A stretch of 64,000 nucleotides of DNA, from assembly GCF_016595525.1 (NCBI RefSeq), contig NZ_JAENII010000004.1, forward strand, positions 186,001 through 250,000, read 5' to 3'. Numbering within the stretch: the first letter of the stretch is position 1; the number at the start of each line of letters is the position of its first letter. Of this stretch, positions 18,302-21,572 are shown piece after piece. Both the position numbers and the translations under genes were made by a program. Below the pieces are notes generated by a model. The model was not told the DNA's origin. It made no database searches and saw only the letters and a program-made list of their open reading frames with translations. The stretch is from Haloferula rosea (lineage in GTDB: Bacteria > Verrucomicrobiota > Verrucomicrobiia > Verrucomicrobiales > Akkermansiaceae).

Positions 18302-18643
18302 ATGCCAAGTTATGTGACAAATGCCGACTACGAGGAAAAAGACATCAATCCGCTCCGCTTGTCGGCGGGAGGTGAGGTGACGGTCGGACCCGTGGACCGG
18401 GCGTGGCCCGGCTGGGTGTGGGCCAGTGATTCCGCTGGGCGCAAAGGATACGTGCCGGAGGAGATTCTGGAACCGCTTGGCGAAGGTCGCTTCGCAGTGA
18501 TCGAGGATTTCGACCCGACGGTGCTTACCGTCCGCCGCGGCGACCAACTCGAGTCGATCCGGCAGATTCACGGATGGCACTGGTGCCGCAATGGTGAGGG
18601 AAACGAAGGCTGGGTGGCCGAGTATCTTTTGACGGCGGTTTGA
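18302..18643 (+). CDS. Small protein of two tandem SH3-like domains
   Basis: 113 residues without signal peptide or membrane segment. Two ~50-residue units align: NPLRLSAGGEVTVG...WPGWVWASDSAGRKGYVPEEIL and TVLTVRRGDQLESIR...WHWCRNGEGNEGWVAEYLL. Each has the L-x-G-D/E turn, the W-W/C core and the G-(W/Y)-V-P/A-E-L end of SH3 variant domains (PF07653-like). SH3 domains in bacteria often bind peptide or cell-wall ligands, but without an export signal a cytoplasmic binding role is equally possible. It ends 15 nt before an ankyrin/L,D-transpeptidase gene and is probably co-transcribed with it. Confidence 0.8.
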   Translation: MPSYVTNADYEEKDINPLRLSAGGEVTVGPVDRAWPGWVWASDSAGRKGYVPEEILEPLGEGRFAVIEDFDPTVLTVRRGDQLESIRQIHGWHWCRNGEGNEGWVAEYLLTAV

Positions 18644-18658
18644 TTCGGGAACGGCACC

Positions 18659-20545
18659 GTGGTAGTCCGTGGCACGGTGTTTCGAAGTTTTCTCCATTTC
18701 CTGAGCCTGTTCGTCCTCGTCTGGGGGGTGTGTGCATGTGATGGGGACAAGGCCGGGGCGATCAAGGAACTGCAGGCCCGGGGTGTGGAGATCAGCGGGC
18801 TGAGTTTGCTGCGTGCGGCGGAGGAGGAGGAATTGGAACACCTCGACCTGCTGCTTCGCGCCGGAGTTTACGCCGAGCAACGCGACCGGCTCGGTCGCAT
18901 GCCGCTCCATCTCGCGGTGATCCAGAAGAATCCGCGGATGGTGGAGCTTCTGATCGATCATGGTGCGGGTCTGCATCATCAGACTGCAAACGGCTGCACC
19001 GTGGTCTCTCTCGCCCTGGCTTCCGGACAGCCCGCTCTGGCGGCCGACCTGCTCGGGCGCGGTGCGAAGCCGGATGGTTTCACACCGGAAGGTGAGCGGC
19101 TTCTGCCCTGGGCGATCCGGGAAGGGCGGACGGATGACATCCAGCTTCTCCTCAAGGCGGGCGCGGATCCTCATGGGAGGGATGAAGCGGGAACTCCCCT
19201 TCTGCATCTGGCGATTGCCGTGAAGCACAAGGATCTGGTCCGCCAATTGATCTCGCTGGGAGCCGATTGCGGTTCCATCGACGCGACGGGGGAGTCGACC
19301 TTGATTCTTGCGTTGCGAAACGGATGGGAGGATCTCGCCAAATCACTGGTGCTTGCCGGGGCGGATCCGAATGCACCCGACCGGGACGGCATTCGTCCGG
19401 TCGTCCGTGCCTTGGAATCGGGCAGGGAAGTTCTTGCGCGCGAGCTCGTCGAGGTGGGTGCGGTCGTCGACGAGGGCTATCTCAATGATGCCTTGCGGGA
19501 AGCCTATCTGGCACGGGATTTCAGCGCCTGCAGGATGTGGCTTCGCTTCGGGGCCCGCCCGGCGGTGCCAGGGGCGACCTGCCTGGTGCGACGCGCGGCC
19601 GTGGACGATGAAACCGGTTTCCTGCATCTCTTCCTTGGCTACACCGGCGTTCCGGATGGGATGTTGTACGAGCATTGCCGTAGTGGCCGGAACCATGTCG
19701 TCGGCTTGTTGCTCGCCCATGGGGCGTCGGTGAATCCATCCCGCGCACCGTTTCTCGGAACTCCCTTTGGACGGGCGATCGAGGAGGGTGGGGATGCCAT
19801 GGCGCTTGATCTGCTTGGTGCGGGGGCTCATCCGCGTGGTCTGGCTTCGATGGGGGCCGAGCCCCTGCCGCTCGCCATCGTTTCAGGGCGGACGGAGACG
19901 GTGCGGCGATTGCTGGAGTGGGGTGCGCCGCCGAATGCCGAGCTCAAGGGGCCTCATTCACCGGGCTTTCTCAAGAAGGTGAGGGGGGCGACGATGCGGT
20001 GGCTACTCAGGAAGGATCAGCGGATCACGCCCATCATGCTCGCGGTGGACTCAGGTTCGATCGCAACCGTGAAAACCCTGCTGAAGCATGGAGCGGAGTC
20101 CAACGTGTGGACGCGCCGCACCGCAATCTGGCCGATCAACCTGGCGGCCCGTCACGAGGACGTGCGGATGATGCGCCTTCTCCTCGGCAAGGATCCGTAT
20201 GTCGAGGAGCGCAGGGTGGTGGTCGATCTCTCCGATCAGGAGTTGGTGGTTTTCGGCGAGACGGGTGAGGAAGTCTTCCGGACCCGGATCTCGACGGGCA
20301 AGAAAGGCTATGAGACGCCGACGGGTGAGTTCGCGATCACCAACCGCTACCGGAACTGGCAATCGACCATCTATCGATCGAGCATGCCGTATTTCCAGCG
20401 GCTGAGCTGCAGCGACTTCGGGTTTCACCAAGGGTATGTGCCCGGCCGGCCGGCATCGCACGGCTGCATCCGCGTCCCCTCCGGATCGGCTTCCAGGTTG
20501 TTCCAGCTGACGCGCTTGGGAGACCGGGTGACCATCGTTCCTTGA
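18659..20545 (+). CDS. Ankyrin-repeat lipoprotein fused to an L,D-transpeptidase (YkuD) domain
   Basis: 628 residues from GTG at 18659 (GTG at 18677 is an alternative). The N-terminus is hydrophobic (FLSLFVLVWGVCAC), and the cysteine near residue 28 may be lipidated. Residues ~40-515 are about a dozen ankyrin repeats, e.g. LGRMPLHLAVIQKNPRMVEL, AGTPLLHLAIAVKHKDLV and RRTAIWPINLAARHEDVRMM. Residues ~517-628 are a complete YkuD domain: VVVDLSDQELVVF, TPTGEFAI, then GFHQGYV and the catalytic SHGCIRV with C603, H601 and H590. The catalytic domain makes or edits 3-3 cross-links or attaches proteins to peptidoglycan in the periplasm. Ankyrin arrays normally bind proteins, so substrate recruitment is inferred. 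The domain pairing is unusual. Confidence 0.9.
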   Translation: MVVRGTVFRSFLHFLSLFVLVWGVCACDGDKAGAIKELQARGVEISGLSLLRAAEEEELEHLDLLLRAGVYAEQRDRLGRMPLHLAVIQKNPRMVELLIDHGAGLHHQTANGCTVVSLALASGQPALAADLLGRGAKPDGFTPEGERLLPWAIREGRTDDIQLLLKAGADPHGRDEAGTPLLHLAIAVKHKDLVRQLISLGADCGSIDATGESTLILALRNGWEDLAKSLVLAGADPNAPDRDGIRPVVRALESGREVLARELVEVGAVVDEGYLNDALREAYLARDFSACRMWLRFGARPAVPGATCLVRRAAVDDETGFLHLFLGYTGVPDGMLYEHCRSGRNHVVGLLLAHGASVNPSRAPFLGTPFGRAIEEGGDAMALDLLGAGAHPRGLASMGAEPLPLAIVSGRTETVRRLLEWGAPPNAELKGPHSPGFLKKVRGATMRWLLRKDQRITPIMLAVDSGSIATVKTLLKHGAESNVWTRRTAIWPINLAARHEDVRMMRLLLGKDPYVEERRVVVDLSDQELVVFGETGEEVFRTRISTGKKGYETPTGEFAITNRYRNWQSTIYRSSMPYFQRLSCSDFGFHQGYVPGRPASHGCIRVPSGSASRLFQLTRLGDRVTIVP

Positions 20546-20600: not shown

Positions 20601-21572
20601 ATGAACCCCATCGAGCACGGCCGGCAGGTCATCGACATGGAAGCGGAAGCCCTCAGGACGATGAGTGGTTCTTTGGATGATTCCTTTGCTTCGGCCGTGG
20701 CGATGCTCAAGACGGTGCTCGACGAACATGGCAAGGTCGTGGTGGTGGGGATCGGCAAATCGGGAAACATCGGGCACAAGATTGCCGCCACGCTGAATTC
20801 GACCGGCTCGACGGCCGTGGTGCTGAACTCGCAGAATGCCCTGCATGGGGATTTGGGCATGGTTTCCGACGGGGATGCGGTGATTGCGCTTTCCTACTCC
20901 GGAGAGACCGCGGAGTTGCTCGATCTGCTGCCGCACATCAAGCGCTTCGACGTCAAGTTGATCGCGATGACCGGCAAGCCGGATTCCACGCTGGCCCGCC
21001 ATGCCGATACGACCCTGGATACTTCGGTGGACCGGGAAGCCTGCCCGCTGAATCTGGCTCCCACATCGTCTTCCACCGCAATGCTGGTCATGGGTGATGC
21101 CCTCGCGATGGTGCTGCTCCAGGCGCGGGGTTTCACCGAGGAAAATTTCGCCCGTTTCCACCCCGGTGGGGCTTTGGGCCGCGCGCTGCTCACCAAGGTG
21201 TCGGACATCATGAGGTCCGGCGAGTCCATGGCCAGCGTGGACTCCGATGCCACGGTGCAGGATGCCCTGGTGGCGATGACCCGGGCCCGCTCGGGTGCAT
21301 GTGTGGTCCTTGCCGCCGGCGGATTTCTTGGTGGGATCTTCACCCACGGTGACTTCGCCCGCAGCTACCAGTCGGACCCCATGGTCGGCGGAAAGAAGGT
21401 GGCGGAGCTGATGACCCGTGACCCGATCAGTGTGCAGGCCGACGCGCTTGCCGCGGAGGCGGTCAAGACGATCGGCGCCCACCGCGTCGATGATGTGGTC
21501 GTCCTCGATGAGGAAGGGAAGCCGGTCGGTCTGGTCGATACCCAGGACCTGGCGCGACTGAAGATCGTCTAA
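20601..21572 (+). CDS. kdsD: D-arabinose 5-phosphate isomerase (KdsD/KpsF family)
   Basis: 323 residues, standard length. The SIS domain carries VVVGIGKSGNIGHKIAATLNSTG, then NALHGDLGMV and ALSYSGETAELL. Two CBS domains follow from residue ~200 (VSDIMRSGE; LMTRDPISVQ), ending in VGLVDTQDLARL. It converts ribulose 5-phosphate to arabinose 5-phosphate, the first step to Kdo for lipopolysaccharide, in the cytoplasm. This shows that the host builds a Kdo-containing outer membrane. The gene stands 55 nt after the L,D-transpeptidase gene and converges on the GH2 gene with a 23-nt gap; a short CCCGG-ATGG-CCGGG stem sits in that gap. Confidence 0.95.
   Translation: MNPIEHGRQVIDMEAEALRTMSGSLDDSFASAVAMLKTVLDEHGKVVVVGIGKSGNIGHKIAATLNSTGSTAVVLNSQNALHGDLGMVSDGDAVIALSYSGETAELLDLLPHIKRFDVKLIAMTGKPDSTLARHADTTLDTSVDREACPLNLAPTSSSTAMLVMGDALAMVLLQARGFTEENFARFHPGGALGRALLTKVSDIMRSGESMASVDSDATVQDALVAMTRARSGACVVLAAGGFLGGIFTHGDFARSYQSDPMVGGKKVAELMTRDPISVQADALAAEAVKTIGAHRVDDVVVLDEEGKPVGLVDTQDLARLKIV

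Follow-up and report, generated by a model that had tools for sequence, protein, structure and literature searches.

The locus considered here raises the question of what a protein composed of an ankyrin array and an L,D-transpeptidase domain contributes to the bacterial cell, and whether the small SH3 gene immediately upstream takes part in its function. The window, by which we mean the whole stretch of DNA that was analyzed, comprises 64,000 nucleotides from Haloferula rosea. A first-pass annotation had assigned positions 18302-20545 to an ankyrin-transpeptidase fusion next to a double-SH3 protein; the region is real, but it holds two genes and the fusion protein, hereafter Ank-YkuD, occupies 18659-20545 alone. 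The features of the region are:

18302 to 18643, + strand: SH3 protein, 113 aa, not judged part of the system (SH3_2 Pfam match, distribution)
18659 to 20545, + strand: Ank-YkuD gene, GTG start, 628 aa (ORF call and Pfam)
18659 to 18739, + strand: predicted signal sequence and lipobox, with the putative lipidated Cys27 at 18737-18739 (home-made rule, not SignalP)
18785 to 20212, + strand: ankyrin array of about 15 repeats, residues ~43-518 (Pfam, helix pairs in the model, Foldseek)
19940 to 20209, + strand: final three ankyrin repeats, residues 428-517, where the array is most conserved (conservation scoring)
20210 to 20536, + strand: YkuD L,D-transpeptidase catalytic domain, residues 518-626 (Pfam 1.2e-19, PDB sequence matches)
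20426 to 20428, + strand: active-site His590 (His in 99/99 homologues; this residue was not a selection criterion)
20456 to 20473, + strand: SHGCIR motif with the catalytic Cys603 (alignment of 99 homologues)
20601 to 21572, + strand: KpsF/KdsD-type sugar-phosphate isomerase, downstream, not judged part of the system (Pfam)

Pfam places both domains within the one 628-aa reading frame, Ank_2 with an E value of 5e-38 and YkuD (PF03734) with 1.2e-19, the latter scoring 71.8 bits against a curated cut-off of 23.4. When the YkuD part was compared with PDB sequences, the best match was 5bmq (2.9e-7), followed by 1y7m and 4a1i (B. subtilis YkuD) at 7e-6, and an ErfK/YbiS-type protein was also matched. 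Structure prediction, a step that the first-pass annotation had advised, agrees with this division. The AlphaFold model of mature Ank-YkuD, built from eight sequences, has a mean pLDDT of 85.7 and a pTM of 0.66 and presents some 15 ankyrin helix pairs and, after them, a beta domain; a second model, restricted to the C-terminal repeats and YkuD, reached a pTM of 0.80 with a mean pLDDT of 78. In both models pLDDT drops below 50 in stretches that flank the active site, in the second model on both sides of the catalytic His. The models therefore define the two folds well but not the geometry of the active site, and the Ank_2 profile together with the modeled helix-pair solenoid identifies the ankyrin array at residues ~43-518, so that the fusion, and the repeats originally placed at residues ~40-515, were both correctly recognized. 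All 50 Foldseek matches listed were ankyrin or DARPin entries, as judged by their titles, and a further structural search, which barely covered the YkuD part, likewise listed ankyrin and DARPin-containing entries. Matches in phage and defence libraries were confined to the ankyrin part. A search of plasmids with the last 240 aa returned 27 records, of which none reached 80% query coverage; the best 15 of the 27 covered 45-59% of the query, mainly the YkuD part.

The C-terminal SHGCIRV site had been described as complete, and this holds: the window protein carries FGFH(590) followed by S600-H601-G602-C603-I604-R605. Across 99 aligned homologues, His590, Pro577, Arg581, Ser600, Gly602, Cys603 and Arg605 are identical in every sequence and His601 in 97. 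These figures must be read in light of how the set was assembled. Sixty-eight of the 99 were admitted on condition of carrying SHGC.R, and the invariance of the motif among them arises from that condition; the window protein and the 30 others were included without that filter. Within those 30 unfiltered homologues, all from other families, the S, G, C and R of the motif are present in 30/30 and its His in 28/30. The own-family set began as 83 ORFs from 81 loci, of which 68 were kept along with the window protein, while 15 were dropped on account of contig ends, short ORFs, the three pieces of L103, or the absence of SHGC.R (L087, L095 and L106). The last three are fusion homologues that lack the motif and L103 is split over three frames; these copies are possibly decaying or variant.

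Known YkuD/ErfK-type members carry LysM, SH3 or peptidoglycan-binding modules. Ank-YkuD, having the catalytic His and the SHGC.R motif with its Cys, is a member of the YkuD family, resembling the YkuD/ErfK-type L,D-transpeptidases (PF03734; PDB 5bmq, 1y7m, 4a1i) in its catalytic domain, its H...SHGC.R site and its predicted export. The six matched PDB YkuD sequences, however, measure 129-258 aa and could not accommodate an ankyrin array such as that of Ank-YkuD. Our literature search, conducted mostly without subscription papers, found no published description of the architecture, which therefore appears to be undescribed within a known enzyme class.

Such an absence from the literature is not matched by any scarcity in genomes. 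Ankyrin arrays had been regarded at the outset as rare in periplasmic cell-wall enzymes. The search for further YkuD proteins with ankyrin repeats, also advised by the first-pass annotation, found matches spanning both parts (E 1e-50 or better) in 147/239 genomes of the order and 34/48 of its genera. Of the refutation set in that annotation, a multitude of described proteins built in this way, one half applies: such proteins are numerous, but our literature search yielded none that had been described. The search profile was built from the last 240 aa (alignment A2, 36 sequences). No genome had a best E value between 2.3e-54 and 2.9e-38, and the strong matches listed start no later than model position 42, most of them at 2-11, and so reach into the ankyrin part. 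Within the window's own family, a match of 1e-30 or better was obtained in 73/145 genomes; relatives with an Ank-YkuD locus include Luteolibacter marinus (L040) and Roseibacillus persicicus (L043). Of 387 genomes sampled across the phylum, 48 had any match; eight of these lie outside the order, and in three of the eight (G323, G328 and G466) a match extended over both the ankyrin and the YkuD part. As only the best 8, 11 and 7 candidates per genome were scored in the family, order and phylum searches, respectively, all of these counts may be low. Pfam confirmed Ank and YkuD domains in 9/9 further fusion proteins from families f1, f2, f3, f4, f8 and f10; a tenth protein tested, a paralogue from the window's own genome, had YkuD alone.

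A tree of YkuD domains placed the 99 fusions apart from 12 stand-alone YkuD proteins, the only such proteins in the tree, with a support of 0.82. Among the fusions, f3, f4 and f10 form one clade each and f1 forms two pure clades (57 and 12 sequences), while f2 is scattered over both halves. We interpret the tree as reflecting a single ancient fusion that was duplicated early and then passed on mostly by vertical descent, although with so few stand-alone sequences, and with f2 scattered, more than one event is conceivable. Ank-YkuD thus appears to be of long standing in the order and widely retained there. Genus g3, whose genomes measure 2-3.5 Mb, has among the matches listed only YkuD-only or nearly YkuD-only proteins, none at 1e-50, and may possibly have lost a fusion that its sister genera keep. 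The YkuD proteins of g3 are mostly frames of 182-350 aa, with some exceeding 1000 aa.

The N-terminus indicates where such an enzyme would act. The first 27 residues of the window protein comprise a hydrophobic stretch ending in VCA-C, a plausible lipobox in which the Cys at -2 is unusual. Scored by the same home-made rule, rather than by SignalP, a lipobox is present in 45/57 own-family copies of clade A, a further 11 having a hydrophobic N-terminus and one having neither. Own-family copies of clade B have a lipobox in 0/12 and a hydrophobic N-terminus in 12/12. The 30 copies from other families comprise three with a lipobox, 22 with a hydrophobic stretch and five with neither; overall, 93/99 homologues have one or the other feature and 6/99 lack a signal by this rule. 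Clade B (e.g. L097, L101 and L104), with its 12 own-family copies, is a second, old fusion paralogue in which a hydrophobic anchor replaces the lipobox. At the level of sequence, then, Ank-YkuD is a predicted extracytoplasmic protein and, with a Cys after the hydrophobic core at the predicted processing site, a predicted bacterial lipoprotein, in keeping with the first-pass annotation. It is probably an exported, lipid-anchored YkuD enzyme bearing an ankyrin array.

Predicted export also separates Ank-YkuD from another YkuD-family group of the phylum. YkuD domains can be carboxypeptidases, as exemplified by the L,D-carboxypeptidases termed ElsL, which are reported in all orders of Verrucomicrobia (PMC8649774). 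ElsL shares the YkuD-family domain, but as described there it is leaderless and cytoplasmic, whereas Ank-YkuD has an N-terminal export signal.

We turn now to the neighboring genes, since the initial proposal was that the SH3 protein and Ank-YkuD may constitute a joint cross-linking device with protein-directed targeting, possibly one that tethers surface proteins to peptidoglycan. The 15-nt intergenic gap was accurately noted, and the adjacency recurs in three relatives. The first SH3 domain is supported by an SH3_2 match (E 7.1e-11, residues 4-58); the second, assumed at the outset, corresponds to weak PDB sequence matches with Abl-type SH3 domains within residues 63-112 (E 0.03-0.1). The protein also bears a weak similarity to SH3 domains of eukaryotes (neutrophil cytosol factor 1, E 2e-4). 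Its sequence shows no visible signal peptide, and thus it should not meet an exported enzyme. Its distribution is equally at odds with a partnership. An SH3 match was found in 59/145 own-family genomes and was strong (E 2e-26 or better) in 51, 47 of these orthologues having 63-76% identity and the window's own 100%; the small protein is in its own right strikingly well conserved. Comparing the two match lists by hand, we found no Ank-YkuD match in 15 of the 51 genomes. Where both genes are present (36 genomes) they are adjacent in four (G000, G039, G079 and G085) and 3.3 kb apart in G093, whereas in the other 31 they are separated by at least 46 kb or sit on different contigs. Among 20 SH3 loci inspected with 1.5-kb flanks (L045-L064), Ank-YkuD stood beside the SH3 gene in four, and no clear other common neighbor was seen within that distance. 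At L039, the Ank-YkuD gene is preceded by homologues of three genes that lie upstream of it in the window (TPR, 15453 and sulfatase), and no SH3 match intervenes. We therefore consider the adjacency to be confined to the window and a few genomes of the same genus, and a two-gene device to be highly improbable. In a comparison of 59 loci, with flanks of unequal length, the SH3 gene lay beside Ank-YkuD in one (L038), sulfatase in one (L039) and KdsD in none, and a linkage of any of the three to Ank-YkuD was rejected.

One neighbor does recur. Clustering of 96 upstream regions yielded a single group common to several genera, present at 26 loci in seven genera, the next largest groups having 5, 4 and 4 members and each being confined to one genus; downstream, the largest group from 90 regions had eight members, all from genus g1. 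The upstream family is dapL, encoding LL-diaminopimelate aminotransferase (TIGR03542; E 1.4e-181 in L043 and 3.7e-174 in L091). It precedes Ank-YkuD on the same strand at 26/81 own-family loci; three of the 81 (L023, L085 and L110) had less than 200 nt upstream and could not have shown it. By genus, the linkage is seen in 10/11 loci of g16, 6/13 of g8, 3/4 of g10, 3/7 of g11, 2/13 of g13, 1/1 of g7 and 1/17 of g1, where the sole linked genome, G133, is just 61% complete. Conversely, dapL was found at 0/15 loci of g6, g9, g12 and g15, beside none of the 12 clade-B copies and at none of 30 loci from other families. In the window itself it is not beside Ank-YkuD, but lies on another contig of the same genome. 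The intervening gap is 34 or 73 nt in L043, depending on the start chosen, and 168 nt in L091; over the 81 loci, gaps were measured between aligned parts and not between gene ends.

DapL lies on the route to meso-diaminopimelate, and it is on this residue of the stem peptide that L,D-transpeptidases act. The neighborhood thereby ties Ank-YkuD to diaminopimelate-containing peptidoglycan independently of its domain name. Within the phylum, Verrucomicrobium spinosum is reported to employ the DapL pathway and to contain diaminopimelate in its cell wall (PMC3681970). The linkage supports a role in peptidoglycan, directly in the linked genera and by homology for the window protein.

The same evidence bears on the notion that Ank-YkuD is a delivered antibacterial toxin. 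L,D-peptidase domains have been reported in polymorphic toxins (PMC3482391), which share with Ank-YkuD the placing of such a domain within a repeat-containing protein. The toxins described there, however, have RHS repeats and linked immunity genes, neither of which is seen at Ank-YkuD, where Pfam finds Ank and YkuD as the sole domains. Furthermore, the N-terminal anchor, the largely vertical pattern with mostly one match per genome across the order, and the lack of a possible immunity gene among neighbors common to genera all disfavor a toxin, a reading to which we give almost no credence.

What, then, might the ankyrin array do? Over 69 own-family sequences, mean conservation is 0.38 in the ankyrin part and 0.64 in YkuD. 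Within the array it climbs to about 0.5 over the three repeats adjoining the catalytic domain, which are its best conserved portion. This pattern supports a conserved junction module, and the last three ankyrin repeats together with YkuD are shown to be a conserved unit.

It is tempting to speculate that the ankyrin groove binds particular envelope proteins, which YkuD then joins to diaminopimelate. LdtA, LdtB and LdtC, which attach Braun lipoprotein to diaminopimelate, provide a model for such client-directed attachment. Ankyrins are protein-binding, the YkuD part matches an ErfK/YbiS-type protein, and in repeats 12-14 of 99 sequences the concave positions are somewhat better conserved than the convex (0.39 vs 0.29). 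This difference, however, is not significant (p 0.12), and neither was any excess of concave over convex conservation across the ankyrin surface (p 0.22 with 15 sequences, 0.14 with 69); hence we dropped concave-groove conservation as proof of client binding. Nor did neighbor clustering reveal a candidate client gene common to genera, and we regard the idea as a rather doubtful one.

Another possibility is that the last repeats cover or gate the active site. A precedent of sorts is Bd3460 of Bdellovibrio, described as a separate periplasmic ankyrin protein that blocks DD-endopeptidases (PMC4686830). Bd3460 and Ank-YkuD are alike in pairing exported ankyrin repeats with a peptidoglycan enzyme, a pairing predicted for Ank-YkuD from its sequence; they differ in that Bd3460, as described there, is a separate DD-endopeptidase inhibitor, whereas in Ank-YkuD the ankyrin part is fused to the YkuD domain. 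The peak of array conservation next to YkuD, the better conservation of the convex than the concave side in the last repeat (0.54 vs 0.33) and the pTM of the last repeats and YkuD modeled as one module are all compatible with self-regulation. Conservation at the junction would nevertheless be expected even without regulation, and we consider self-regulation rather unlikely.

Taken together, these findings are best accounted for by an envelope-tethered, YkuD/ErfK-type peptidoglycan L,D-transpeptidase with a built-in ankyrin arm, old and mostly vertically inherited, and located behind dapL in several genera; we hold this reading to be reasonably probable, if by no means secure. As an envelope-tethered transpeptidase, the protein would be exported and anchored by its lipobox Cys, or by a hydrophobic helix in the paralogous clade. 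The acyl donor for the Cys603/His590 site, as anticipated from the family, would be the diaminopimelate-D-Ala bond of a stem peptide; the diaminopimelate would then be joined to an amine, yielding a 3-3 cross-link or the attachment of a protein. The last three ankyrin repeats may hold or regulate the catalytic domain, and the N-terminal repeats, variable in number and sequence, would most likely form an arm between membrane and wall, acting as spacer or adaptor. A more specific proposal, of a lineage-specific means of aiming a wall cross-linking enzyme, in which a membrane-fixed solenoid arm of variable length, joined by a conserved three-repeat collar to the catalytic domain, sets the site of action and the envelope client, and is coupled in some genera to diaminopimelate supply via dapL, is offered tentatively and as an improbable refinement.

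The new elements here are the order-wide conservation of Ank-YkuD and its linkage to dapL in seven genera. The order holding Luteolibacter and Roseibacillus gains a conserved candidate family of L,D-transpeptidases that carries an unusual accessory fold and, in several of the genera, is genomically linked to the synthesis of diaminopimelate. Should the arm serve to select clients or distance, this would represent protein-guided wall modification, unlike that afforded by LysM or peptidoglycan-binding modules.

The 4.7-Mb genome of Haloferula rosea contains 13 YkuD loci, many for a genome of this size, and the enzyme may accordingly be redundant. At least four of the YkuD loci of this genome (L118, L119, L120 and L125) have lipoprotein-like N-termini, and six of its ORFs, including Ank-YkuD, have ankyrin matches.
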